64,000 bases of DNA from Methanoplanus sp. FWC-SCC4 (GCF_032878975.1 NZ_CP043875.1:310001-374000), one strand, 5' to 3'. Counted from the first letter of the stretch, positions 44,434-58,760 are shown. Numbers and translations are program-made. The notes: generated from the sequence alone by a model not told the origin.

Positions 44434-46461
44434 ATGAAATCAAGGGATATCGCAATTGTCGGAATTTTGCTTGCGATAGGTGCCATCCTTAGATATCTTT
44501 CAAATATAGTTCCCGGAGCCATCGTAGCAAATCCGATAATTGCTCTTTACTGTCTGGCAATTATTCTGATTGTCCCGAAAATCAGGGACGCTCTTGGAAT
44601 AGGAATTGTTGCCGGAGTAGTTTCTGCACTTATTAGTCACTCAATCTTCCCGCCGGCAAATCTGATATCCGAACCCCTGGGTGCTTTGGTATGTCTCGGA
44701 GTATATCTGGCTGCAAGAAAAAGAGTTCCGTTTGCTCCGGGAATATCCACCTTTGTTGCAACGCTTGCAAGCGGTTTTACCTTCCTTGCAATCAGCATAT
44801 TTGTAATAGTGTCGGGAATCATCGGACAGCCCGGTGAATCGTTTACAGTCGGTGCCTTTGTAATAGCAATATCCCCGATTATTATTCTGACTGCCATTGC
44901 AAACTCCGTAATTGCACAGATTCTCTATATTCCTTCTTCAAGAATATTGATGAGAAGTGCATCGGGAAGTGATTCTGTCAGTGAAATATCCAAAAACCAG
45001 ACAGACAATTCTGATGAAAAATGTGCAATAGATTTTGATAATTATTCCTTTAGGTATCCTCTCGAAAAGACAGGTTCACTCAATGAAATAAATCTGAAAA
45101 TAAAAAAAGGCGAATGTGTTCTCGTAAACGGAACAACGGGTGCAGGGAAAACAACACTCTGTCTTGCAGCTGCGGGTATTCTTCATCATGAATATGAGGG
45201 TGAGTCTTTTGGCACTGTTTCAATTTTTGGAAAGAATGTCTCCAAATATGCCGATATGGGTGATATCGGGAGAAAGGTCGGTGTTGTTTTTGATGACGCT
45301 GATGCACAGCTTATTTTCACAACAGTTGAGGAAGAGGTGTTATCAGGGCTTGAAAACCGTGGTCTTCCTCCCGAAGAGGTTAAGCAGCGTCTTGAGGAGA
45401 TAATGGAGCTTACAAACATAGAGGGCCTGCGTTACCGTGCCCCCCATACTCTTTCGGGCGGGCAGAAACAGCGTGTCGCCCTTGCCGCAACTCTCGCATC
45501 GGGAACTGAATGTCTGATACTTGACGAAGCGACAGCCGAACTTGATGAAGATGCAACAGAGATGATAATTTCCGTTTTAGAGAGGCTGAAGTCACAAGGA
45601 AAAACCATAATCGTGATCGAACAAAAGCCCGGGCAGATGTCCGGCATTGCAGACCGGATAATAACCCTTGATAAAGGATTTGTAAAGTCTGTGACCACGC
45701 CTGACAAATATTATCCGGAAATTCCCGTTGAAACGGAAGAGTGTATGAAGGATGTATTCCAAAAACCAACGCACCTTCCCAAAGATCCGGTAATATCCAT
45801 AAAAAATCTGGTTCACAGATACGGGAATGAGAGAGGTCTTGACGGAGTTTCACTTGAGATATATCCCGGAGAACTTGTTGCAATAATCGGAGAGAACGGT
45901 TCAGGGAAGACAACTCTTTCAAAGCACTTAAACGGACTATTAAAGCCTGATGAAGGTGAGGTGCTTGTTTGCGGGATTAATACCCAAAAAGCATCCGTAA
46001 CAGAGCTTGCAAGGCATGCAGGGCTTGTCTTTCAGAATCCTGATACAATGCTTTTTGAGGATACAATTGAAAAGGAGATTCTTTTCGGGTTGAAAAATAT
46101 TGGGAAGGATTTGGATCCGGATTCAGACTATATAAAAGAAGTTCTTGATGAGGCAGGTCTTCTGCACCAGTCCGGGAAGTTCCCCCGTTCAATGAGCAGG
46201 GGAGAGCGGCAGAGGCTTGCAATCTCCTGTGTTACCGCGATGAATCCCGAAGTGATCATACTTGATGAGCCTACGACAGGGCTTGATGAAAAGGAGGCTT
46301 CAAGGGTTATGAAAATTTTAAAGAGGCTTGGTGAAAGCGGGCACACTGTGATTATGGTCTCCCATGATATGGAGGTTGTAAAGAATCATGCAAAGAGAAT
46401 AATCAAAATGACTGACGGAAAGATCTCTGCTGATTATACAAACACCGGAGGGTGCTTTTAA
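44434..46461 (+). CDS. ECF transporter: S component fused to two ATPase domains
   Basis: A 675-residue fusion. Residues 1-180 form about six membrane helices resembling a substrate-binding (S) component. Two ABC ATPase domains follow. The first (about 197-430) has GTTGAGKTT, LSGGQKQR and LILDEATAELD; the second (about 450-670) has GENGSGKTT, the variant signature MSRGERQR and IILDEPTTGLD. The T component is the next gene, overlapping by 1 bp. The S domain does not match a vitamin-specific family that I can name, so the substrate is unknown. GAGGAGGTGATTTTGAGC precedes the ATG, a near-perfect ribosome-binding site. Confidence 0.85.
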   Translation: MKSRDIAIVGILLAIGAILRYLSNIVPGAIVANPIIALYCLAIILIVPKIRDALGIGIVAGVVSALISHSIFPPANLISEPLGALVCLGVYLAARKRVPFAPGISTFVATLASGFTFLAISIFVIVSGIIGQPGESFTVGAFVIAISPIIILTAIANSVIAQILYIPSSRILMRSASGSDSVSEISKNQTDNSDEKCAIDFDNYSFRYPLEKTGSLNEINLKIKKGECVLVNGTTGAGKTTLCLAAAGILHHEYEGESFGTVSIFGKNVSKYADMGDIGRKVGVVFDDADAQLIFTTVEEEVLSGLENRGLPPEEVKQRLEEIMELTNIEGLRYRAPHTLSGGQKQRVALAATLASGTECLILDEATAELDEDATEMIISVLERLKSQGKTIIVIEQKPGQMSGIADRIITLDKGFVKSVTTPDKYYPEIPVETEECMKDVFQKPTHLPKDPVISIKNLVHRYGNERGLDGVSLEIYPGELVAIIGENGSGKTTLSKHLNGLLKPDEGEVLVCGINTQKASVTELARHAGLVFQNPDTMLFEDTIEKEILFGLKNIGKDLDPDSDYIKEVLDEAGLLHQSGKFPRSMSRGERQRLAISCVTAMNPEVIILDEPTTGLDEKEASRVMKILKRLGESGHTVIMVSHDMEVVKNHAKRIIKMTDGKISADYTNTGGCF

Positions 46462-47258
46462 TGGCTGAAATTCTGCAATATAAAAGGATAGACGGTATAT
46501 TCCACCGGATGAATGCACTGACCAAGATAATTTTGCTTGGATTCATCATTGTCCTGGCAGTTATCTCAACAAATCCTTTGTTTTTGGGAGGAGTTGTTGT
46601 ATTTTTGTTCTGCCTCTCCGTAGCCGGCAGATTTGCACGTGAACTGCTTGCCCAGATCCCGATGATTATGTTTCTGAGTGCAGGTCTTTTACTGCTTACA
46701 ATACTGACCATGCAGTCCGGGGATGTAATCGGATACCTGATACCAACAGGCATTCCTGTAATCGGAGGTCATATTCCCATAACAGAGGGGGCTTTGAATT
46801 TTGCACTTATCCTCTCACTCCGGTTCTTTGTGATGCTCTTTGCATTTCAGGTTCTGATTGTCTCAACCCAGCCGAGGGCACTTGTGAATGCACTTCAGAA
46901 ATTAAGGCTTCCTGTGGACTACACTCTCATGCTTTTGATTGCGATAAGGTTCATACCGAGCCTTCAGCTTGAGGGTAAAAGAATTCAGGAGGCTCAGCTT
47001 GCAAGAGCCTATAATCCGGGGACGGGAGTTTTGGGAAAGGTCAGATCACTGACCCCGATTATGATACCCCTTGTTTCAAATGCACTTGGGAAGGCAAATG
47101 TCCTTGGGCTTACGATAGATCTCCGGGGCCTGCGTACAATGAAGAGAACACCCGATTTAAATGACAAATTTATCTATGCTGATTATGCAGCGTTCATATT
47201 TGTCGGGCTGTGTGTGGCTGCACTGGTTTACAGCCTTTTATCTGGAAGCCCGGTTTGA
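46461..47258 (+). CDS. ecfT: ECF transporter T component (EcfT)
   Basis: A 265-residue membrane protein of the CbiQ/EcfT family with about six helices. The cytoplasmic coupling helices carry the expected Ala-Arg-Gly-type motif in EAQLARAYNPG and GLTIDLRGLR. ATG 46461 overlaps the TAA stop of the S-A-A gene by one base, with GGAGGGTG upstream. An in-frame start 9 bp earlier is rejected. It couples the two fused ATPases to the S component. Confidence 0.88.
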   Translation: MAEILQYKRIDGIFHRMNALTKIILLGFIIVLAVISTNPLFLGGVVVFLFCLSVAGRFARELLAQIPMIMFLSAGLLLLTILTMQSGDVIGYLIPTGIPVIGGHIPITEGALNFALILSLRFFVMLFAFQVLIVSTQPRALVNALQKLRLPVDYTLMLLIAIRFIPSLQLEGKRIQEAQLARAYNPGTGVLGKVRSLTPIMIPLVSNALGKANVLGLTIDLRGLRTMKRTPDLNDKFIYADYAAFIFVGLCVAALVYSLLSGSPV

Positions 47259-47358: not shown

Positions 47359-47874
47359 TTAGTATTCAATACCGCGTCTTGCCTTAACGCCGTTGTCAAA
47401 GTAATGTTTTACTTTTTTCATCTCTGTTACGAGGTCTGCAAGTTCTATAAGTTCTTTCGGAGCATATCTTCCTGTAAGTATGACTTCGGTGTTTTCCGCC
47501 TTTTCACTCAGAACTTTAATTACTTCATCAGTTTTTAAGAGCCCGTAGTATATTGCGACATTTATCTCATCAAGAACAACAAGGGAATAATCACCTGAAG
47601 AAAGAATCTCTGAGCATCTGTTTAGTCCCTCCCTCGCGATTTTTATGTCACTTTCTGTTGGCTCATCAAAGATGAAACAGCCTTTTCCAAACTGCTCTAT
47701 CTCAAAATTTGGAAAATATTCGCTTAAGCGGAGTTCTCCGGTTTCAACTCCTTTAATAAACTGCCCGAAGAAGACCGTTTTTCCGGAAACAAGTGTCCTT
47801 ACTGCTGTTCCAAGTGCTGCTGTGGTTTTTCCTTTACCATCGCCTGTGTTGATCTGGATGTATCCTTTATGCAT
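47359..47874 (-). CDS. cobO: Corrinoid adenosyltransferase
   Basis: A 171-residue P-loop enzyme of the CobA/CobO type that transfers adenosyl from ATP to cobalt(I) corrinoids. GYIQINTGDGKGKTTAALG contains the Walker A motif (GDGKGKTT, 11-18), with FFGQFIKG and LVVLDEINVAIYYG completing the site. It is convergent with ecfT and lies downstream of the corrinoid-uptake genes on the same strand, which fits salvage of imported corrinoids. Confidence 0.93.
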   Translation of the reverse strand: MHKGYIQINTGDGKGKTTAALGTAVRTLVSGKTVFFGQFIKGVETGELRLSEYFPNFEIEQFGKGCFIFDEPTESDIKIAREGLNRCSEILSSGDYSLVVLDEINVAIYYGLLKTDEVIKVLSEKAENTEVILTGRYAPKELIELADLVTEMKKVKHYFDNGVKARRGIEY

Positions 47875-48094: not shown

Positions 48095-49081
48095 TTATTT
48101 AATATTAAGGGAGGATTTCTGCAAAGAAAGGCATTTCTCTATTTCCTCAACAGATTTATTCGTAAATTCATGTGTTATAAAGTCCGGCTCTGTAAATTCA
48201 ACGATCTCCCTGCATTTTTCTGATGTAAAAGGCCTGTGTTCATCAAAAAATTTAAGGTGCCCCATTATTGCAGAAAACTTTTCGTTAATATCAAGTTTCT
48301 GAAAATTCTCAGGCTCTTTGAGGTTTTTCTGGTATTCGGCTGATGTGCTCTGGTGAAAGTGGAGGCCGGCAATTTTATCGATAACTTCCTTGTCCTGTTT
48401 TTCAAGCACCGACATAACACATTGTATTGCGTTCTTTTCATCACGGCATTTTCCGGTTGCGTTCATGAGGTGCCCTGTGTCAAGCATAAACTTCCACTTT
48501 TTGAATTCAAGCATATCCATGAATTCCGCTGTAAGTGACTCATCAAGAAACGTAAGTCCGGGCCACCAGAGATTTTCAATGAAAATGTCATATGGTGGTT
48601 CGCCCAAAGGAAAACCTGCCGCTGTTTCATTGAGCATTTCAGCGTTTGCTCTCAGAACATCCCTGTCTGTGCATCCGTGGTTTCCGGAAAATGTGTTTTC
48701 CGCCTCCATATATCCGGCATGATAAACACCGTATGCAGGGTTTGTCACCTCTGCAAATTTTATGCAGTCTGTGAAATTCTTTATAATCTCTGATCTGGTT
48801 TTCCCGCCGTAGAAATATCTGAGAGAATCCTGATCAATAAACCCCGGGACTTTGAATTTATTATCAGTCCAGACCCTGTACCATCCCATAAATGAAGGAA
48901 GATGAACACCGCCAACGATATTTTCTGGAATGTTGTCAGGCAGCGGATCAAAATTTACCAAAAGCTCAACGCCGTCGATATCATTTTCCCTTAAAAACTC
49001 TGAAAGGCAGTTCCAGTCTCCGTTGAATTTTTCAATGTCAAAACTGTATATTGAAAAGTTAAGAAATTCTTTGTAATTCAT
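48095..49081 (-). CDS. Xylose-isomerase-like TIM-barrel protein
   Basis: A 328-residue sugar-phosphate isomerase/epimerase-type (AP endonuclease family 2) barrel. Likely metal-ligand motifs are GGVHLPSF, GVYHAGYMEAE, IFIENLWWPG, MLDTGHLMNATG and GLHFHQS. The family includes isomerases, epimerases and endonuclease IV; nothing fixes the substrate. It lies 69 bp downstream of the propeller gene of the corrinoid locus and upstream of cobO, so a role in corrinoid handling is possible but unproven. Confidence 0.75.
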   Translation of the reverse strand: MNYKEFLNFSIYSFDIEKFNGDWNCLSEFLRENDIDGVELLVNFDPLPDNIPENIVGGVHLPSFMGWYRVWTDNKFKVPGFIDQDSLRYFYGGKTRSEIIKNFTDCIKFAEVTNPAYGVYHAGYMEAENTFSGNHGCTDRDVLRANAEMLNETAAGFPLGEPPYDIFIENLWWPGLTFLDESLTAEFMDMLEFKKWKFMLDTGHLMNATGKCRDEKNAIQCVMSVLEKQDKEVIDKIAGLHFHQSTSAEYQKNLKEPENFQKLDINEKFSAIMGHLKFFDEHRPFTSEKCREIVEFTEPDFITHEFTNKSVEEIEKCLSLQKSSLNIK

Positions 49082-49150: not shown

Positions 49151-50242
49151 TTATTTTCTGAAAATCATAATCAGGAACAGGGCCCCAAATAATGAAAATA
49201 ATCCTGCCGGTGCTGACTGATTTTTTAAATTAGTATTATTTGTATGGCCTGATTCACTGCTTTTAGAATCAGTCTTTGTAATATCATCTGCATTTTTGTC
49301 ATTTTCATTATTTGTATCAATATCACTTTTAGTATCCGAATCAGTTAATGAATAGCAATAAAGTTTATTTTCAGCAGACACAGCAATAATCTCACTGTTT
49401 TTATCTGCGGCAATGGAGGTTGCAGGCTTGTTTAATTCTATATGGCCTTTAATCTCACCTTTATTGTCGAGGAAAAGAAGACCGGGATTTACCGCGACTG
49501 TAATTTTTTCTCCCGCACTGCTGATGGCAATATCTTTTGGACTGTCAACATTTTTTGACCATAAAAGTCGTCCTGCCCTTGACAGCAGATATACAGTATT
49601 GTCGGATGAACAGGCAGCTATCATATTGCCGTTGTTTGTAACCGATATTCCTGTAACGGGCTTAAATGTTGCTTTGTATTTCCACTTCCTGTTAAGTCCG
49701 CTGTCAAATAAAAGAATGTTCCCCTCTTTAGTTCCTCCTGCAATGTAGTTGCCATCCCCGGATATCTCAAGGGACATCATATCCTCATCAGTTTCGGCAG
49801 ACAGGGTTTTGTCACTTTCAATTGAATAGGAGTATATTTTTTCATCATCCATCCCTGCATATGCATATTTTTGGTCACCGGACAGCCCGGCGGATAATGC
49901 CATATATTTTGATTTATCGTTCCACAAAATATCCGCATTCTGATCAATTAGTGTAAGACCAAAACTGGCAAGAAGAATTTTTTCTCCATCCAATGAAATA
50001 TCAAGCGATTTGAGATTACCTGATTTTTTTTCGGTTATCAGATTTCCTGATGAGTCATATACGTAAACTGTATCCGATGTGATTGCAGTTATAAAATCAC
50101 CGGACTCTGATATTGCAGTGTCCCGAATAAGTTCACCCGGATTTTTTTCAAATATGAGGTTTGCTTCCATATCTGATGCTGATACAGATGCGCTTAATAG
50201 CAGAATAAAAGTCAGAAAAAAAGTTAAAAATATTTTTTTCAA
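49151..50242 (-). CDS. Secreted beta-propeller protein with C-terminal anchor
   Basis: A 363-residue exported protein. A signal peptide (1-22) is followed by about seven WD40/PQQ-like blades (residues 30-300), each with a YVYDSSGN- or LLFDSGLN-type turn. Then comes a low-complexity Asp/Asn/Ser/Thr linker, and a final hydrophobic helix with a basic end (GLFSLFGALFLIMIFRK), which resembles archaeal sortase-type C-terminal sorting signals. The TTG start overlaps the stop of the toroid-BtuF gene by 4 bp and AGGAGGAAAG precedes it. The linked genes suggest it helps to bind corrinoid at the cell surface, as the BtuG propeller does in Bacteroides; this is inference. Confidence 0.75.
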   Translation of the reverse strand: MKKIFLTFFLTFILLLSASVSASDMEANLIFEKNPGELIRDTAISESGDFITAITSDTVYVYDSSGNLITEKKSGNLKSLDISLDGEKILLASFGLTLIDQNADILWNDKSKYMALSAGLSGDQKYAYAGMDDEKIYSYSIESDKTLSAETDEDMMSLEISGDGNYIAGGTKEGNILLFDSGLNRKWKYKATFKPVTGISVTNNGNMIAACSSDNTVYLLSRAGRLLWSKNVDSPKDIAISSAGEKITVAVNPGLLFLDNKGEIKGHIELNKPATSIAADKNSEIIAVSAENKLYCYSLTDSDTKSDIDTNNENDKNADDITKTDSKSSESGHTNNTNLKNQSAPAGLFSLFGALFLIMIFRK

Positions 50243-52266
50243 TCTTTCCTCCTCCTGATAAATCCTGTCATAAAGACGGAAAGGATTACTGAAACTATTG
50301 CAACGACGGGATACACAGGTGTGGTCTGACTGTTTATTGTTTCTGTTTTTGTGTTTGTGTTTTCAAACATTTCAGGATGAATGTCAGCTGCAACTTCTTC
50401 TAATGCATCGACAATTCTTGGTCCCCCTCTGTCGATTGTATCCGAATCTGCAATGTAGACTCTTCCCTCCTTTACCGCCTTTATATTCTTAAATCTGGGT
50501 TCATTCATTATGTATTCATAGATACAGTCTCTGCTGTTCTGGTCCATGCCTGAACCGGAATTTACAATCAGAACATCAGGGTTTTTGGTAATGAAGTCCT
50601 CCATTGAGACAATTACCCAGCTGTCCATGTCACCGAATGCATTATTTCCGTTTGATGTTTTGATAAGTTCGTCCTGGAATGTGTTTTTCCCGCTTATCCA
50701 GATTGGATCGTACCATACTATATGTGCAACTTCAGGGGTGCATTCATCCTGTTCAGCTATGCTTTTTACATTTTCAATCCTTTTTGAGAGTGATGATACA
50801 AGTTCCCCGGCCTCTTTTACATTTCCGGTTGCTTTCCCGAGAAGTGTGATGTCTGATAAAACACTGTCAAGGTCTGTCGGGTTTAGTGTAATTACAGACA
50901 TCCCAAGATCTTTCAGGTGGTTTACAACATCCTCTGTGTTTCCGTATGCGGCAACTACGAGATCAGGCTTTAATGATACAACCTTTTCAATATTTACAGA
51001 ACTAAAACCGCCTGCCTTCTCTTTTGACTGTGCTTCTTTTGGGTAGTTGCAGTAATCCGTAACTCCGACAACCCTGTCGCCTGCACCTATTGCGTAAAGA
51101 ATTTCCGTATTTGAAGGTGCCAGTGATATAATTCTCTCCGGAATTTTTGAAATCTCTGTTGTATAGCCCATGTCGTCTGTGATTTCTACATGGTATTCAA
51201 TATCCTGATTTGCAGAGTCAGCTGAAGAAGAATCTGATTTAACTGTGTTTTCCGGTTTGAGAGTTTCTTTTTGATTTGAATTATCAGGTGTTTTGGATGT
51301 GACAGTGTTTTTTAATGAATCAGTTTTCTGATTCTTCATAACAGGGTAGGGTTTTCCCATAAGTGCCGGAATTGCATTTGTTGACATCCTGCATTTATTG
51401 TCCTCAAGGTAATCTGTCCATTTGAAATATCCTTTATCTGCCTGCAGGCTCAGGAGATGTGATACAGGATTATTACCACTTTTTGTTGTCCATGATTCCG
51501 GATTTTCTCCTGCAGCGACTATTGCCTGTATTGCCCATGAATCAGATGCTGAATTGGCCTCACTTGAGCCTCCGTAATTGAATCCCCCGTTTTCCTTTTG
51601 GGATATTTTAAGGAAGGAAATTGCTTTCTGAACTGATTCTGAATCCTGCGGTTCACCGCCTGCAATCAGGGCCATCAGAGTGGAGGATGTATCGTCACAG
51701 TCACTTTCAGCCCCTTTTGTCCATCCAAAACCCCCGTCTTCATTCTGAACTGATTTTAGCCATTTTATTGAATCTGATGCATCAATACCGTTTGCAGAGA
51801 GAGCTGTCACTGCCCAGCTGGTTGTATATATGTGGTCACCGAACTGACCGTTTTCTTTTTTCTTCCCTGATAAAAGGGTGATAAAATTATTACCTGCAAA
51901 ATTTTCCGGATCATATCCGGCAGCAGTAATGGTCATAATCATTTTGGCTGTTTCTGTTGTGCCGTCGATTGAATATGTCTCATCCGAGATGCTGTAAAGA
52001 TAATCTATTGCACTTGTGCCGTTTTTCTTCCAGTCTTTTGGATCCTGACCTGCAGATACAATGGCCATTATTGCCCATGTTGATGTTGCAGGATTTGAAC
52101 CCCTGTCTGATTCTCCAAAACCGCCGTCATCCTTCTGGCAGGTTTTGATATAATCAAGTGCATTTTCCACATTGTTGTCATTTTGTGTAAGCGGATAAGC
52201 ACATGCGCATGCAACCGCCATCATAAAAATCAAAAAAATAGTTGTGAAAGTTGTAAATTTACTCAT
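50239..52266 (-). CDS. Alpha/alpha-toroid fused to BtuF-type binding protein
   Basis: A 675-residue exported fusion. After a signal peptide (about 1-24), residues 30-320 hold helical repeats with QxDDGGFG-type turns (KDDGGFGES, NEDGGFGWT, KENGGFNYG), as in squalene cyclases, prenyltransferase beta chains and the N-terminal half of intrinsic factor. A linker follows, then a periplasmic-binding domain of the BtuF/FepB class (385-640: ERIISLAPSNTEILYAIGAG, VVGVTDYCNYP, LKPDLVVAAY), and a terminal membrane helix. ATG 52266 is chosen for the GGAGAT before it; it starts 1 bp after the DUF4430 gene stop. With BtuCD nearby, B12 or cobinamide is the likely ligand. Confidence 0.85.
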   Translation of the reverse strand: MSKFTTFTTIFLIFMMAVACACAYPLTQNDNNVENALDYIKTCQKDDGGFGESDRGSNPATSTWAIMAIVSAGQDPKDWKKNGTSAIDYLYSISDETYSIDGTTETAKMIMTITAAGYDPENFAGNNFITLLSGKKKENGQFGDHIYTTSWAVTALSANGIDASDSIKWLKSVQNEDGGFGWTKGAESDCDDTSSTLMALIAGGEPQDSESVQKAISFLKISQKENGGFNYGGSSEANSASDSWAIQAIVAAGENPESWTTKSGNNPVSHLLSLQADKGYFKWTDYLEDNKCRMSTNAIPALMGKPYPVMKNQKTDSLKNTVTSKTPDNSNQKETLKPENTVKSDSSSADSANQDIEYHVEITDDMGYTTEISKIPERIISLAPSNTEILYAIGAGDRVVGVTDYCNYPKEAQSKEKAGGFSSVNIEKVVSLKPDLVVAAYGNTEDVVNHLKDLGMSVITLNPTDLDSVLSDITLLGKATGNVKEAGELVSSLSKRIENVKSIAEQDECTPEVAHIVWYDPIWISGKNTFQDELIKTSNGNNAFGDMDSWVIVSMEDFITKNPDVLIVNSGSGMDQNSRDCIYEYIMNEPRFKNIKAVKEGRVYIADSDTIDRGGPRIVDALEEVAADIHPEMFENTNTKTETINSQTTPVYPVVAIVSVILSVFMTGFIRRRKD

Positions 52267-52267
52267 T

Positions 52268-55200
52268 TTATCTCCTGTTTTTAGTTGTATAAAATAAAAT
52301 TCCTGCCACAATTATAATGACAGATATCAAAACCAGCGGAGATATGCCGGAACTGTTTGTTTTCTCTGTTTTTATCTCCTCTGGTATTTTATCTGCTATT
52401 TTATTATATGTACCTTTTTTATCAGATATACTGTTTTCATCGACTTCCTTTACCCAGACAAGGGCAAATCCCGAGAGTCCGTCCGGTGAAACAGCCTTAA
52501 ATCTGTATCTTCCTGATTCATCTTCACCGATAAATTCTGTTTTTAGAATCTCTGTTTCGCCGTTGTCTTTAATGTGGATGATTTTAATTAAATCTGCATT
52601 TTCTTTATTCTGCATCCATATTTTATCAACAGTAAATATTATGGCTGAAGTTCCAATGTCAATTCCGTCTTCAAGATTTTTCTTTTGAACATCTACAAAT
52701 GCACCAACTGATGCAATCTCCTGGTTTTCTCCAGCTAAAAGGTAATTGAATTCTCTTAATTTGTCTTCAGATACATCATCATACACAAGAGTTGTAAGTT
52801 TTGCGTCAACAGGGACTGCATAAAGGTCTGCATTAATGTTGACTGAAAAACTTCCCAGGTTTTTATTATTGGATTCGAGCTGACCGGTCTGAAGTGTTAT
52901 TGACTCCACAGGGCCGAAAAGCTGACCGTCTTTTTCCTTGTAATCCTCGAGTTTTATCTCCATTGTGGTTTCGCCGTATGAAAAAGAGATTGTGTTTTTG
53001 TCTTTTTTAACATTATATCCTTCATTGAGAGCGGCATCAAGGCTGAGAGATAGATATGTTCTGCTTTCCTGAAGTGACAGGTCTGCCGAGTCAGGAAGTC
53101 CTATATTATAACTGTATGTTGATCCGGGACTCTCTGTTGATTCATCTCCCAAACCGGAGTTCTCGTTCTGTTGTTTTGAGTCTGTGGTCTGACTTTTCGA
53201 AAATGCTGCCTTTAGACCAATTTTGTCATATGAGTCCTCGGGTTTGTCAGTCATTGACTCACTCCAGTACCAGAGAACCTCGTCCCCTTCTTTTAATTCA
53301 TAGTTGTTAGGACCAGTGCCAGGTGAAATTCCATTAACCTGATACATCCATCCTGTTGTACCTGTGGTCTTTTTCCCCTTTATGGAGTCAATAAACAGAG
53401 AACCATATTCTTCAAAGGCACTGTCTGTCACGGTGTATGAATACCCTGATTTTATGAGTATGCCAAGTGCGGTATTTTCTTTAACCAAATATTCGCTGCC
53501 GCTGATTGCAGTGACATTTAGTGTTCCCTTTCCAATTAATGTCGATTTATAGGTGACTGAGGAAGTGGACGGGGAGGAATCAGAGCTGTCTTTGCCTCCT
53601 GTATCCGGATTATTGATAACTGTGTCTCCTGCACCAAAGCAGTAGACCTTATTGTAATATTCGCCGCCGATATAGAGCCTGTTATTGTATATTGCCGGTG
53701 ATGAGGAGTAAAATGATGCCCAGTTTCCGTCATCAGGTGCAGTTTGTGTGTAACTCCATATTACGTTCTGAGTGGAAATATCAAGGGCTATTACCTTTCC
53801 TGCCTTTTCTGATGTTGCAAAATAAACTGTTTTGTCAGATACTGCCGGAGAACCGCTTATGCTTCCTGATTCATAGTGCCAGTTTTCAACGCCGTTTGAA
53901 GTGTCATAGCAGTGAAGTCCGTCTGTCTCCCCGACAAAAAGTGAGCCGCCGGAGATTGCGGGTGTTCCCGAACCCGGACTGGCAGCTATATTCCATAAAG
54001 ATGCTCCTGTGTCTTTATTAATGCAGTAAATGCCTGATTTGGTTGTGAAATATATATTTGAGTCATCCAAAACCGGTGAAGACCTGATGAAATCATCCAC
54101 GGTCACATTCCATTTCCATGCATAGCTGTAAATGTCGATGCATGAGAGTTTTTTAGATCCCCCACAGGCAAAATACACATTATCTCCGTCACCAAGGGGT
54201 GAACTAAAGTATGTACTGTTCCCTGTATTCATTGAATACTGAATATTCCCTTTTAAGTCAAAGATGCTAAGAATGCCTGATTTCTGGCCTGTTACAAATA
54301 TTCTGTCTTTGTAAACCAGAGGAGCTGAATTTACCTCTGACCATGGCGTAGGGTTCTCATCAATTGTCCTGATCCATTCGGTTGTGCCTGAAGTGAGGTT
54401 TACTGCATAGAGTTTTCCGTTTGTACCCCTGACAAGAATGTTACCGCCGCCAATTGCAGCGCCTGCAACAGATCCGTATCCGTCCTCAAGAGTATTTTTC
54501 CAGACTTCGTTTCCTGTATCAGCATCAAGACAGTACAGGTACATCTCATCTCCGTCTCCAAAGTCCATGTCGGGCCATGTCGATACGTAGATTTTTCCGT
54601 TGTAAATCAGGGGCTTTGTGTCAGGTGATTCCGGAAGTGTTGTTGTCCATTTAAGGTTGGCAGTTGAAGGGCCGTCTCCGGTCTGTGGTTTCTCAGGGTC
54701 ATCTATCCCCGGTATCACTGAGCCGACTTTAATGGTAACCATTTTGTCTGCAGTATCCGGTGTTACCATTTCAGGGTAGTTGCATAACCCGTAGCAGAAC
54801 TTTATTACATCATCTTTGACCACTTTATTGCCTCCCAGACCTGAGGATACAGGTTCTCCATTGATGTAAATAAGCCAGTAATTGTTCTGTTCTGCTGAAC
54901 TGTTTATGTCTGCAATTCCGTCCAGACTGAATGTGCCGTAATCCTGATACCAGCTGTCACTGACATTCAGACTAAAAAACCCCTGTTCTGAAGCTTTTTT
55001 TAGTGCGCCCAAATCAGTGTTTTCTAAAACCGTGTATGTATTTGAGATATTGTTTAACGGGTGGTATTCAAAACCGGAATCTGACAGGGAAACTGTACCT
55101 TCCCAGGTTTTGAACGGCAGAACACTAACTGAGATGTTTACAATACACTCTGATTCTGAAATTGATTGTGGCTGCCAGTTTCCGGGAGTGACTTCTTCCC

Positions 55201-56296
55201 ATACGCCTGTATAAAAGGACAGTTTGTCTCCGTCTTTACATATGTAATTCTGAATGCCTGTCCGGGCTGTTTGCCCGTTTACAAGGAAAATCCATTGTGA
55301 TGAGTCCCCTGTGTTTCCTATTGTATCCAGCTGGTATCCCCATCCCCCATAAGACACCTGGTACTCAAAATCTCCTTCTTTTGATGCAGCATCAAGGGCT
55401 GCGAGTGCTGATATATTAGATGCAGGATGTTCTGAGTCGGGAACCAGGGCTATGCTTCCTTTTGTGAGCTGAACACTTCCTTCAAAACCCTCAAACTTTT
55501 CGACATTTGTGACATTGATTTTTATCAGAGCCGTTGCGTTGATTTCATCTGTGCCATCGGCACCATATGCAAAAACAATTGTGTCTCCGGTATTTGCTTC
55601 GTAATCTGAAGCACCCGTCATCATGTGGTTATTATTGACCAGAAAATTCCAGTATTCCCCGGTATCTGAATTGTACCCGATTCCGTTAATTGGATCAATA
55701 AATGCTCCCCATTCGGAATAGGTAACTGTATAGGGGAAGGATTCCTGTATGGATAAGATTTCCAGAGCGCCAAAAGCCGAGGTGTTTGACTCAAAATGTA
55801 TTCCGTCTTTTGAAAAAGTGCCCTGTATCAGCTCCACATCACCTTCATATTTGAAATAATTTCTGACATCTGATACTGTAATATTTACAAATCTGACCGG
55901 ATTATTCTCATCTGTTCCGTCAGGACCGTATGCGAAAATGATGTTGTCATCTTTTTTGCATTCGTATCCGGCAGGGCTGGTGTTTACAATGTTTCCGTTT
56001 ACTATAAGATTCCACCTGTTCCCGCTTGTTATATTAACGGAGATGCCGTTTATTGATTTGATATCAGGAATATCACCGGTATAATTCAGTTCATAATTGA
56101 AATTCAGGCTCTTTGACAAAGAATTCAAAGCCGAAAGGGCTGATGACTGTGACTCAAAATGTATTCCGTCTTTTGTAAAAGTGGTCCCGTTTGTAATCCC
56201 AACATTTCCTGTATAATCAGCAGATTCTGCCAAAACAGGCGTTGTCATCAATAAACATAATAAAATTAATAAAAAAATCCCTGTTTTTGGTATCAT
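52268..56296 (-). CDS. Giant surface protein: five DUF4430 modules around a PQQ-type beta-propeller
   Basis: A 1342-residue exported protein. After a signal peptide (1-24) come four DUF4430-type modules (about 28-143, 150-263, 271-390, 397-525), each with a W..xVNG core and a GDxIxFxYG end. A PQQ-type propeller follows (about 545-885), then a fifth DUF4430 module (905-1015). Next is a PGF-pre-PGF-like domain (about 1075-1290, ending in GLSGFALVW), and finally a membrane helix (1318-1337). The first two modules share KDGIHFES. DUF4430 is the fold of the C-terminal domain of transcobalamin and intrinsic factor. It heads the operon, divergent from btuC, and probably presents several corrinoid- or ligand-binding modules at the surface. 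Confidence 0.82.
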   Translation of the reverse strand: MIPKTGIFLLILLCLLMTTPVLAESADYTGNVGITNGTTFTKDGIHFESQSSALSALNSLSKSLNFNYELNYTGDIPDIKSINGISVNITSGNRWNLIVNGNIVNTSPAGYECKKDDNIIFAYGPDGTDENNPVRFVNITVSDVRNYFKYEGDVELIQGTFSKDGIHFESNTSAFGALEILSIQESFPYTVTYSEWGAFIDPINGIGYNSDTGEYWNFLVNNNHMMTGASDYEANTGDTIVFAYGADGTDEINATALIKINVTNVEKFEGFEGSVQLTKGSIALVPDSEHPASNISALAALDAASKEGDFEYQVSYGGWGYQLDTIGNTGDSSQWIFLVNGQTARTGIQNYICKDGDKLSFYTGVWEEVTPGNWQPQSISESECIVNISVSVLPFKTWEGTVSLSDSGFEYHPLNNISNTYTVLENTDLGALKKASEQGFFSLNVSDSWYQDYGTFSLDGIADINSSAEQNNYWLIYINGEPVSSGLGGNKVVKDDVIKFCYGLCNYPEMVTPDTADKMVTIKVGSVIPGIDDPEKPQTGDGPSTANLKWTTTLPESPDTKPLIYNGKIYVSTWPDMDFGDGDEMYLYCLDADTGNEVWKNTLEDGYGSVAGAAIGGGNILVRGTNGKLYAVNLTSGTTEWIRTIDENPTPWSEVNSAPLVYKDRIFVTGQKSGILSIFDLKGNIQYSMNTGNSTYFSSPLGDGDNVYFACGGSKKLSCIDIYSYAWKWNVTVDDFIRSSPVLDDSNIYFTTKSGIYCINKDTGASLWNIAASPGSGTPAISGGSLFVGETDGLHCYDTSNGVENWHYESGSISGSPAVSDKTVYFATSEKAGKVIALDISTQNVIWSYTQTAPDDGNWASFYSSSPAIYNNRLYIGGEYYNKVYCFGAGDTVINNPDTGGKDSSDSSPSTSSVTYKSTLIGKGTLNVTAISGSEYLVKENTALGILIKSGYSYTVTDSAFEEYGSLFIDSIKGKKTTGTTGWMYQVNGISPGTGPNNYELKEGDEVLWYWSESMTDKPEDSYDKIGLKAAFSKSQTTDSKQQNENSGLGDESTESPGSTYSYNIGLPDSADLSLQESRTYLSLSLDAALNEGYNVKKDKNTISFSYGETTMEIKLEDYKEKDGQLFGPVESITLQTGQLESNNKNLGSFSVNINADLYAVPVDAKLTTLVYDDVSEDKLREFNYLLAGENQEIASVGAFVDVQKKNLEDGIDIGTSAIIFTVDKIWMQNKENADLIKIIHIKDNGETEILKTEFIGEDESGRYRFKAVSPDGLSGFALVWVKEVDENSISDKKGTYNKIADKIPEEIKTEKTNSSGISPLVLISVIIIVAGILFYTTKNRR

Positions 56297-56472
56297 AATA
56301 TCATCTCATGTTTAATTGTCTTCAATAATTAAATATAACTTTACTTAATTTAATTTTTTTGGATAATGATGATTATTTAAAATATGTGCCTTTTATTTAA
56401 AAGGTGAGGGTCAAGATCAAAAAAATAGATAATCAGATCAATAAAATCTGAATATACAAAAATTAATTTGTA
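56297..56472. promoter_or_regulatory. Divergent promoter region of the corrinoid locus
   Basis: A 176 bp AT-rich spacer with TATA-like runs for both directions (near 56325-56335 for the minus genes and 56372-56382 for btuC). Two inverted repeats are visible: CCTTTT-ATTT-AAAAGG at 56389-56404, and TTTAATT with AATTAAA flanking 56310-56333. A shared regulator acting on both sides is plausible. No cobalamin riboswitch is recognised. Confidence 0.5.
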
Positions 56473-57519
56473 ATGGTGGTGAATACCTTTTGGGATTGCA
56501 TGAAAAATAAAAAAATATTCTTCTCACTGCTGGTGCTGACCGGATTAATCACCTTTATAATATCATTATTATGGGGTTCAAGTACAGTAGAGCTGAAGAA
56601 TATTTTTCCAAATGATCTATGGGGCTTTATCGGGAGTCTGATTTTTAATAATTCACCCGAAGGGCCGTGTGCATTTTTTGACGACCCGACAACTTATCTA
56701 ATTGTATATGACATAAGGCTTCCAAGAGCAATTATTGCATTTTTTGCAGGATGTGGCCTTGCAGTTGCAGGGACTGTCATGCAGGCTCTTTTTAAAAATC
56801 CGATGGCAGACCCGTATATCATAGGAACATCTTCAGGAGGTGCACTTGGAGCGGCGATATCGATAGTTGCAATAGGTGGCTTATTCCTGCCGCTGTTTGC
56901 ATTTTTTGGTGCAATGGGTGCAACCTTCCTTGTATATGGAATATCAAAGAGAAACGGGAGAGTTCCGGTTGAAACACTTTTATTATCAGGTATTGCAGTC
57001 TCGATGTTTCTATCCGCTTTTTTGTCTTTTATAATGTACAACTCCGGAAAGAGTCTTCATCAGATAATGTTCTGGATGATGGGCGGATTTTGGAATGCGG
57101 ACTGGGGGGATGCATATCTTGCCCTGATAATTCCTGTATTGTCAGTAATCCTTTTTGCAGTAGCAAGGGATTTGAATGCACTTTCACTGGGGGAAGAAGA
57201 TGCGGTCCATCTTGGAGTAAATGTTGAAATCCTGAAAAAAGCCGTGCTTGCAACCGGATCTTTCATTACCGGGATTGCGGTTGCCATATCAGGTGCAATC
57301 GGATTTGTCGGGCTTATCGTTCCGCATACCATGCGTTTAATAGCAGGCCCTGATCACCGGGTTCTTCTGCCGGCATCTATGATAGCGGGCGGAATTTTTC
57401 TGATGTGTGCAGACACTCTTACAAGAACATTTTTCAACGAAATGCCTGTGGGAATAATAACAGCATTTGTCGGAGCACCCTTCTTTGTATATCTTTTAAG
57501 AAGGAGGATGTCAGCATGA
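56473..57519 (+). CDS. btuC: Corrinoid/siderophore ABC permease (BtuC family)
   Basis: A 348-residue FecCD-family permease with about ten membrane helices. Conserved elements are IRLPRAIIAFFAGCGLAVAG, QALFKNPMADPYIIGTSSGG and GLIVPHTMRLIAGPDHR. It pairs with the BtuF-type domain encoded divergently and with the ATPase downstream, whose gene overlaps by 4 bp. The family transports B12, haem or siderophores; the context (CobO, BtuD C-terminal domain) favours corrinoids. An alternative start is the Met at residue 10. Confidence 0.88.
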   Translation: MVVNTFWDCMKNKKIFFSLLVLTGLITFIISLLWGSSTVELKNIFPNDLWGFIGSLIFNNSPEGPCAFFDDPTTYLIVYDIRLPRAIIAFFAGCGLAVAGTVMQALFKNPMADPYIIGTSSGGALGAAISIVAIGGLFLPLFAFFGAMGATFLVYGISKRNGRVPVETLLLSGIAVSMFLSAFLSFIMYNSGKSLHQIMFWMMGGFWNADWGDAYLALIIPVLSVILFAVARDLNALSLGEEDAVHLGVNVEILKKAVLATGSFITGIAVAISGAIGFVGLIVPHTMRLIAGPDHRVLLPASMIAGGIFLMCADTLTRTFFNEMPVGIITAFVGAPFFVYLLRRRMSA

Positions 57520-58760
57520 TAAAAATAGAGAATCTTTTTGCCGGTTACGGCAGTGAAGATATTTTAAAGGACATCAGCACCGGATTTTACGGGGGAGAAT
57601 TTATAGGAATTCTCGGAAGAAACGGTTCAGGCAAAACAACTCTTTTAAAAACAATAAGCAGGGTTCTCGATTATCGCTGTGGAAAGATTGAGTTGTTTCA
57701 AAAACCTCTTGAAAGTTATTCTCCAAAAGAGATTGCGGGTAAATTAAGTGTTGTGCCCCAGGAAACCCTGATAAACTTTGATTATTCGGTATATGATATT
57801 ATCATGATGGGGCGGTATCCTCACATGAAAAGATTTTCAGGGGAAACAGCGGTTGACAGAAGAATTGTCGATGAAGTGATGGAGAAGACCAATGTCTCGC
57901 GTTACAGAAATAAATCCGTAACGGAGATAAGCGGAGGTGAAAGACAAAGAGTTTTGATTGCAAGGGCACTTGCACAGCAGCCGCAGATTCTTCTTCTCGA
58001 CGAGGCCACATCACATCTGGATATCAATCACCAGATTGAGATACTTAACCTTATAAAAAATCTTGATGACAAAGTAACCAGGATTGCAATATTTCATGAT
58101 TTAAATCTTGCCTCACAGTACTGTGACAGACTCATTATAATGAATGAGGGAAAAATTGTCGCAGGAGGAAAACCGGAGAGTGTTCTTACAAGAGAAAATC
58201 TGGCTTTATATTTTGGTATCGAAGCTTTTGTTGAGAAAAACAATCTTTCAGGAAAGCCTTACATAAGGCCTTTGATAAATCCGCTGAAAAAATTCAGCAG
58301 TGTTGAAAAGGTTCATATTGTCTGCGGAGGCGGAACAGGCTCAGATCTCATGCAGATGCTTAAAGGAGCAGCTTTTAACATTAGTGCCGGAATTTTGTGT
58401 GCAGGTGATACCGATTACAAGACTGCAAAGGAGCTTTTGATCGATACTCTCTGCGTTCCTCCTTTTACTGAAATTACTGAAAATAATATTGCCTCGTTAA
58501 AAGATATGATTGAAAAGTCTGATGCCGTAATTTTAACGATGATGCCGGTTGGACCTGGCAATATATGCAATATCGAAGCTTTAAGGGATATTAACAAGCC
58601 TGTGTTTATATTTCAGCCTTCATCCATGGATATTTCCTGTTATGATTTTTGTGAAGGCAGGTTTGCAGATCAGCTCATGTATCTTATTGAGAATGGTGCA
58701 AAGGTTGTAAAAAGCATAAATGAACTCTCAGATTCTCTGAGTCAAAAATACACAGAATAG
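57516..58760 (+). CDS. btuD: Corrinoid ABC importer ATPase with C-terminal extension (BtuD)
   Basis: A 414-residue protein. Residues 1-250 form the ATPase: GRNGSGKTT (34-42), VVPQETLINFDYSV, ISGGERQRVLIARAL and ILLLDEATSHLD, with His in FHDLNLAS. Residues 265-414 form an extra domain beginning VHIVCGGGTGSDLMQML and containing AGDTDYKTAKEL. As I recall, BtuD proteins of haloarchaea carry a similar extension, supporting B12 as substrate; the function of the domain is unknown. ATG 57516 overlaps the btuC stop, with AAGGAGG upstream. Confidence 0.88.
   Translation: MIKIENLFAGYGSEDILKDISTGFYGGEFIGILGRNGSGKTTLLKTISRVLDYRCGKIELFQKPLESYSPKEIAGKLSVVPQETLINFDYSVYDIIMMGRYPHMKRFSGETAVDRRIVDEVMEKTNVSRYRNKSVTEISGGERQRVLIARALAQQPQILLLDEATSHLDINHQIEILNLIKNLDDKVTRIAIFHDLNLASQYCDRLIIMNEGKIVAGGKPESVLTRENLALYFGIEAFVEKNNLSGKPYIRPLINPLKKFSSVEKVHIVCGGGTGSDLMQMLKGAAFNISAGILCAGDTDYKTAKELLIDTLCVPPFTEITENNIASLKDMIEKSDAVILTMMPVGPGNICNIEALRDINKPVFIFQPSSMDISCYDFCEGRFADQLMYLIENGAKVVKSINELSDSLSQKYTE

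Follow-up and report, generated by a model that had tools for sequence, protein, structure and literature searches.

A toroid-BtuF fusion linked to DUF4430 proteins and btuCD in Methanomicrobiales: a probable surface system of corrinoid salvage

A locus of the archaeon Methanoplanus sp. FWC-SCC4 (genome of 2.31 Mb, single contig) encodes an exported protein in which an alpha/alpha toroid is fused to a BtuF-type substrate-binding domain, next to an exported DUF4430 protein and the genes for the permease BtuC and the ATPase BtuD. The assignment of this locus to corrinoid uptake is well supported by comparative sequence evidence, namely conserved linkage in relatives, alternative domain fusions and riboswitches in bacterial relatives. 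Furthermore, we consider it probable that the locus serves corrinoid salvage at the cell surface, with the toroid and the DUF4430 modules clamping the ligand and relaying it to BtuF and BtuCD. Since the same gene set recurs in relatives, the arrangement is not a chance one. The window, to which all positions refer, is the whole stretch of 64,000 nucleotides that was analyzed (NZ_CP043875.1:310001-374000).

Gene content and products of the locus

From position 56296, the minus strand carries the genes for P1, P2, and P3, in this order and tightly spaced; P1 and P2 lie one base apart and the start of P3 overlaps the stop region of P2, whereas the overlapping btuC and btuD genes are divergent from this run (Table 1). 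Both this arrangement of a BtuC/BtuD pair and three coupled genes for exported proteins, and the domain content of the three products, had been proposed from inspection of the sequence, and gene calls, Pfam, and NCBIfam bear them out, as they do the presence of CobO downstream on the same strand. A signal-like segment at the N terminus and, at the C terminus, a hydrophobic one followed by basic residues are common to P1, P2, and P3, which are predicted to be exported, membrane-anchored proteins. No Rfam riboswitch was found in the window, including the region between P1 and btuC.

Table 1 Features of the locus and its surroundings in the window
Feature	Position	Strand	Description
ECF transporter	44434..47258	+	Two CbiO-type ATPases in one chain with a membrane domain (44434-46461), and CbiQ (46452-47258)
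CobO/CobA	47359..47874	-	Corrinoid adenosyltransferase; PF02572, 2.7e-64; TIGR00708 above cut-off
TIM-barrel protein	48095..49081	-	AP endonuclease 2 superfamily; PF01261, 1.2e-6, 28.9 bits, below cut-off of 31.1
P3	49151..50242	-	363 aa, predicted exported WD40/PQQ-type propeller, C-terminal hydrophobic anchor
P2	50239..52266	-	675 aa, predicted exported, toroid and BtuF-type domain, C-terminal hydrophobic anchor
DXDDT motif (DCDDT)	51688..51702	-	In the toroid of P2, aa 189-193 (numbering from start 52266)
P1	52268..56296	-	1342 aa, predicted exported, C-terminal hydrophobic anchor
P1-btuC intergenic region	56297..56472		176 bp between divergent genes
BtuC	56473..57519	+	Corrinoid ABC permease, FecCD family; PF01032, 1.4e-91
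BtuD	57516..58760	+	Corrinoid ABC ATPase; PF00005, 1.1e-30; likely start 57516
BtuD C-terminal extension	58290..58757	+	About 155 aa

P1 contains five DUF4430 modules (PF14478, 4.5e-38; aa 28-127, 150-248, 271-368, 398-506, and 916-1014), which are all the DUF4430 matches of the genome, a PQQ_2 propeller (4.8e-51, about aa 540-880) and a weak PGF-pre-PGF region. P2, which is likely to start at ATG 52266 rather than TTG 52311, combines a toroid (about aa 25-310; Pfam Prenyltrans/SQHop_cyclase, 4.3e-16), mostly above pLDDT 85 in the predicted structure, with a BtuF-type domain (about aa 355-636; Peripla_BP_2, PF01497, 1.3e-38). The NCBIfam BtuF model scores 119.5 bits on P2, below its cut-off of 234. 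In a fold search with the predicted model, the BtuF domain matches solved BtuF structures with Z of 25.5-27.1, those of Escherichia coli and Vibrio reaching 27.0 and 27.1 over 242-250 residues; in this search, binders of haem and siderophores reach similar scores.

The best NCBIfam models for the transporter genes are those of vitamin B12 BtuC (346.7 bits, below the cut-off of 461, followed by F420-0 with 252.1) and of the corrinoid ABC ATPase PRK09536 (329 bits, below the cut-off of 537). Thus, the locus shares with the BtuCD-F importer of B12 a FecCD-type permease, an ATPase, and a BtuF-fold binding domain, but differs from it in that an anchored protein carries BtuF as its C-terminal half, fused to a toroid, and that BtuD is extended at its C terminus. 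The extension has no Pfam match and is conserved in archaeal BtuD relatives.

The TIM-barrel gene between P3 and CobO, which the sequence-only reading had passed over, is probably part of the locus. In five genomes a relative of this gene is encoded no more than 2 kb from cbiZ, and in a further genome one adjoins btuF. CbiR, a cobamide-cleaving remodelling phosphodiesterase, is likewise a member of the AP endonuclease 2 superfamily (PMC7733943), and this shared superfamily, together with the proximity to corrinoid genes in several genomes, marks the protein as a candidate CbiR-like corrinoid remodelling enzyme, an assignment which gene context supports but does not prove. In one relative (locus L039), a different AP-endonuclease-2 protein follows P3. 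The ECF transporter genes are separated from P3 by about 2 kb, which holds the TIM-barrel and CobO genes, and run on the opposite strand; no Pfam family was detected at E 0.5 in the first 200 aa, the membrane domain of the transporter. Relatives of this transporter adjoin btuFCD or toroid loci in many Methanoculleus relatives, and it may therefore carry a corrinoid, a precursor, or cobalt, which makes it a possible associate of the locus.

The genome also encodes CbiC, of the anaerobic de novo corrin pathway, and the salvage amidohydrolase CbiZ, the latter being present in nearly all relatives as well. Judged for the pathway from CbiC alone, the host can thus probably both make corrinoids and salvage them; corrinoid uptake is then probably not obligatory and the locus would serve salvage.

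Conservation in archaea and riboswitches in bacteria

A search of 60 related genomes, that of Methanoplanus sp. FWC-SCC4 included, recovered the toroid-BtuF fusion in 26, of which 24 (the present genome and 23 relatives) encode it at full length, one has a copy at a contig end and one a fragmented copy. The fusion spans four families of the order, the relatives including Methanogenium, Methanofollis, Methanoculleus, Methanocalculus, and Methanocorpusculum. DUF4430 matches above the cut-off occur in all 26 fusion genomes as opposed to 1 of the other 34 (Fisher p 3.9e-16), a co-occurrence which largely reflects operon membership and shared descent and thus measures one linkage rather than many. 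Within the neighbourhoods examined (up to 20 kb around 25 fusion loci), a DUF4430 protein, sometimes split in two genes, stands beside the toroid in every case, and BtuC and BtuD are encoded within 7.3 kb in 20 loci, with contig ends in 4 others. A lack of btuCD linkage in relatives had been named at the outset as evidence that would speak against a corrinoid-capture locus; instead, wherever the contig reaches far enough, the linkage is conserved in 20 of 21 loci. The exception is the Methanocorpusculum locus L043, in which btuCD is absent from the 20-kb stretch. The btuCD genes are divergent in Methanofollis, as in the present locus, and co-directional and upstream in most other genera. Most fusion loci include a linked P3 homolog, and the copy number of DUF4430 modules differs between loci. 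Neither a toroid nor DUF4430 was found in any of the 15 BtuF-only loci. Three loci (L039, L041, and L042) hold a BtuF-only gene and a toroid-BtuF fusion beside one btuCD, which suggests that one importer is served by two binding proteins.

A scan of species genomes located the toroid in Methanomicrobiales, Archaeoglobi, Clostridia, and a few other groups. In Archaeoglobi, a propeller-DUF4430 protein is followed by DUF4430 and toroid in one protein and then by btuF, often with btuC and btuD nearby. The toroid is thus fused to DUF4430 in Archaeoglobi and to BtuF in Methanomicrobiales, which argues that the three domains act together. The Archaeoglobi toroids form one group in a phylogenetic tree, and archaeal and Bacillota toroids are largely separate. 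The clostridial toroids are encoded behind DUF4430 proteins, CbiQ, and a double CbiO, an operon type known from Burroughs et al. (2007), who proposed that bacterial proteins with a toroid and a transcobalamin-like beta-grasp domain scavenge B12 (PMC1796856).

The cobalamin riboswitch RF00174 (Rfam) is present in 14 of the 15 bacterial toroid/DUF4430/ECF loci scanned, and in 11 of them it precedes the first DUF4430 or toroid gene by 90-214 bp; none was found in the Clostridia locus L104, the contig of which starts inside the first DUF4430 gene, or in the six Archaeoglobi loci scanned. A published survey recorded 535 cobalamin riboswitch sites in 197 genomes, under three per genome, so that the frequency in the bacterial loci is far above chance. 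The riboswitches tie the toroid/DUF4430 family to corrinoids independently of the BtuF annotation. Two of the bacterial loci (L107 and L109) encode DUF4430 and toroid proteins with C-terminal regions matching the C-terminal part of NF033190, which suggests anchoring to the cell wall.

These patterns bear on an explanation under which corrinoids are taken up by the BtuF domain and BtuCD alone, and the toroid, DUF4430 modules, and propellers are structural, making no direct contact with the ligand while spanning the S-layer, anchoring the complex, or binding surface glycans or partner cells. BtuF-only genomes do retain btuCD in the absence of the additional genes, BtuF-only and fusion genes coexist in some Methanoculleus and Methanocalculus loci, and propellers together with variable numbers of DUF4430 modules resemble a surface scaffold. 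However, the toroid has many invariant residues in the Methanomicrobiales alignment and is tied to corrinoid genes both when fused to BtuF and when fused to DUF4430 before btuF, and it recurs, there unfused to BtuF, in riboswitch-bearing ECF operons. A solely structural role is thus unlikely.

Import of a different molecule (such as haem, F430, or a siderophore) instead of corrinoids is, in our judgment, more improbable still. Burroughs et al. doubted that B12 is the ligand of the archaeal family members, since archaea synthesize B12, and considered another metabolite possible (PMC1796856). Consistent with such a ligand, the host has CbiC for de novo synthesis and BtuF-like folds bind haem and siderophores, but the best-scoring models for BtuC and BtuD are corrinoid ones, the operons of bacterial relatives carry cobalamin riboswitches, and the host encodes CobO, downstream on the same strand, as well as the salvage enzyme CbiZ. 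Surface corrinoid salvage would also accommodate an incomplete corrinoid, for example cobinamide, as ligand. The evidence from Methanomicrobiales and Archaeoglobi counters the doubt about the archaeal ligand, because the linked transporter is that of btuF and btuCD.

Affinities of the toroid, DUF4430 modules and propellers

The toroid is the part of the system for which the comparison with animal proteins is least direct. A fold search with the whole of P2 was dominated by matches of the BtuF domain and revealed little about the toroid, although a squalene-hopene cyclase was matched with Z 25.8. Cyclases rank first in profile searches with the toroid, and transcobalamin and intrinsic factor are absent from the toroid-only profile matches (one complete list and the best 60 of 84 matches in the other). 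At the same time, the toroid falls far below curated cyclase cut-offs (TIGR01507, 52.8 versus 431.1 bits; TIGR01787, 57.9 versus 322.7 bits). For the Archaeoglobi DUF4430-toroid fusion, the predicted structure of which is of low overall confidence (pTM 0.52), squalene-hopene cyclases are the closest solved structures (Z 25.9), and cobalamin-bound intrinsic factor scores Z 21.6 over 247 residues. The latter match is confined to the toroid, and neither intrinsic factor nor transcobalamin matched over both domains. Hence, the likeness of toroid and intrinsic factor anticipated by the sequence-only reading is present in the fold, yet the cyclases appear nearer. The intrinsic-factor-like clamp built on that likeness finds no counterpart to the two-domain packing of transcobalamin or intrinsic factor, but stays plausible.

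The DXDD motif is common to class II terpene cyclases and provides the catalytic acid of squalene-hopene cyclase. In the toroid, the residues D189, D191, D192, and T193 of the DXDDT motif are invariant among 24 aligned Methanomicrobiales sequences, and the motif is frequent in archaeal and bacterial toroid relatives, including those in cobalamin-riboswitch loci. Despite this conserved motif and the cyclases as best matches in sequence and fold, it is very improbable that the toroid acts on a terpenoid, as an exported enzyme like the class II terpene cyclases or a descendant of one, and has no part in corrinoid capture. The protein has only one toroid and a signal peptide, lies outside the cell, and is fused to BtuF or DUF4430, and in archaea and bacteria alike it is linked to genes of B12 transport or to cobalamin riboswitches. 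The fold, moreover, is common to prenyltransferases, complement proteins, and intrinsic factor.

For the DUF4430 modules, the affinity with the animal proteins suspected from the sequence is borne out: a search of the PDB with the DUF4430 profile places human transcobalamin-1 first (E 0.0014), with intrinsic factor at E 0.09, and the Archaeoglobi profile matches transcobalamin-1 at 5e-4 and intrinsic factor at 0.003, the latter with its best stretch in the toroid. A tree of 128 archaeal modules is divided by a branch with SH-aLRT of 96. One side consists of 59 upstream repeats, among them modules 1-4 of P1, and the other holds the last modules of P1-type proteins, the toroid-fused Archaeoglobi modules, and 19 further upstream modules. 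Module 5 of P1 is thus grouped on the side of the toroid-fused modules, apart from modules 1-4, which suggests that it is the counterpart of the Archaeoglobi toroid-fused module, a lead drawn from a short alignment of 109 columns. Tandem DUF4430 arrays also occur in large proteins away from the btu locus, with six modules in one genome (G005:C1:39095-41317) and three in another (G011:C1:2168473-2169459), indicating other uses of DUF4430 in these genomes.

A parallel drawn earlier between the propellers and the B12-capturing BtuG of Bacteroides gains no support from the sequences. Searches by phmmer with the P1 propeller and P3 yield matches to BamB, designed, and WD40 propellers, so that by sequence the two are of BamB/PQQ and WD40 type, and no relationship to BtuG was found. 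The locus resembles those of the Bacteroides lipoproteins BtuG and BtuH in having accessory surface proteins, a propeller included, encoded together with btuFCD, but its archaeal host has neither an outer membrane nor BtuB, and its propellers match, by sequence, the other types just named.

Proposed mechanism, known systems and implications

Under the salvage reading, P1, P2, and P3 would be exported and held by their anchors at the outside of the cytoplasmic membrane. A corrinoid would be gripped between the P2 toroid and one DUF4430 module of P1, most likely the fifth, much as in transcobalamin and intrinsic factor. The ligand would then go directly to BtuF, a hand-over proposed because toroid and BtuF domain share one chain, and pass through BtuCD. 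Inside the cell, CobO would adenosylate the corrinoid, and the CbiR-like TIM-barrel protein and CbiZ may remodel it, whereas the propellers would provide a scaffold. The identity of the ligand, the geometry of the clamp, the hand-over, the scaffold role of the propellers, and the remodelling role are inferred parts of this explanation. As to the surface corrinoid apparatus that had been claimed, uptake through toroid and DUF4430 proteins feeding BtuF and BtuCD gains from the btuCD linkage, the Archaeoglobi fusions, and the riboswitches; the clamp-and-relay mechanism may reasonably be deduced, and an animal-like clamp is plausible. Against the salvage reading count the greater proximity of the toroid to cyclases than to intrinsic factor in sequence and fold, together with its retention of DXDDT, the variable number of DUF4430 modules, the locus without btuCD, and the binding of haem and siderophores by BtuF-fold proteins.

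More tentatively, it is possible that the locus encodes an archaeal counterpart of intrinsic factor, with the toroid half tethered to BtuF and the beta half supplied by a partner protein, so that the relay would take place on a single scaffold. Animal intrinsic factor, transcobalamin, and haptocorrin likewise consist of an alpha/alpha toroid and a DUF4430-type beta domain. Unlike in the animal proteins, toroid and beta domain reside on separate chains in the window and are joined to transporter parts, and the toroid is closer to squalene-hopene cyclases; the Archaeoglobi relatives have both domains in one chain, in reversed order.

It should be noted that the view of this arrangement as previously undescribed was overstated, since B12 scavenging by toroid/DUF4430 proteins, archaea included, was predicted by Burroughs et al., who listed euryarchaeal members and reported propeller fusions (PMC1796856). 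Their figure includes Methanospirillum hungatei and Methanosarcina. The systems have in common exported toroid and DUF4430 proteins, multi-module proteins, propeller fusions, and more than one such protein per operon. The operons of Burroughs et al., however, use CbiO/CbiQ (ECF), whereas the present toroid forms a fusion with BtuF and shows linkage to btuCD; the ECF genes, which usually adjoin the toroid/DUF4430 genes in bacterial loci, stand about 2 kb off on the opposite strand; and the host does not lack the one B12 synthesis gene tested, CbiC. Our search of the open-access literature brought up no paper describing a toroid fused to BtuF, which is not proof of absence; the coupling of toroid and DUF4430 to BtuFCD, with direct fusion of toroid to BtuF, is apparently the new part.

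If the salvage reading is correct, the two-domain B12 clamp of animals has prokaryotic relatives which can be studied beside their own transporter, and a testable scenario for the origin of intrinsic factor and transcobalamin would follow. The published doubt on B12 binding by archaeal members of the toroid/DUF4430 family would be revised, and a function would be assigned both to DUF4430 modules and to those exported toroids for which cyclase and prenyltransferase models are the only matches. It would further mean that archaea able to make corrinoids still invest in salvage at their surface, and would hint at how methanogenic communities share or compete for corrinoids.
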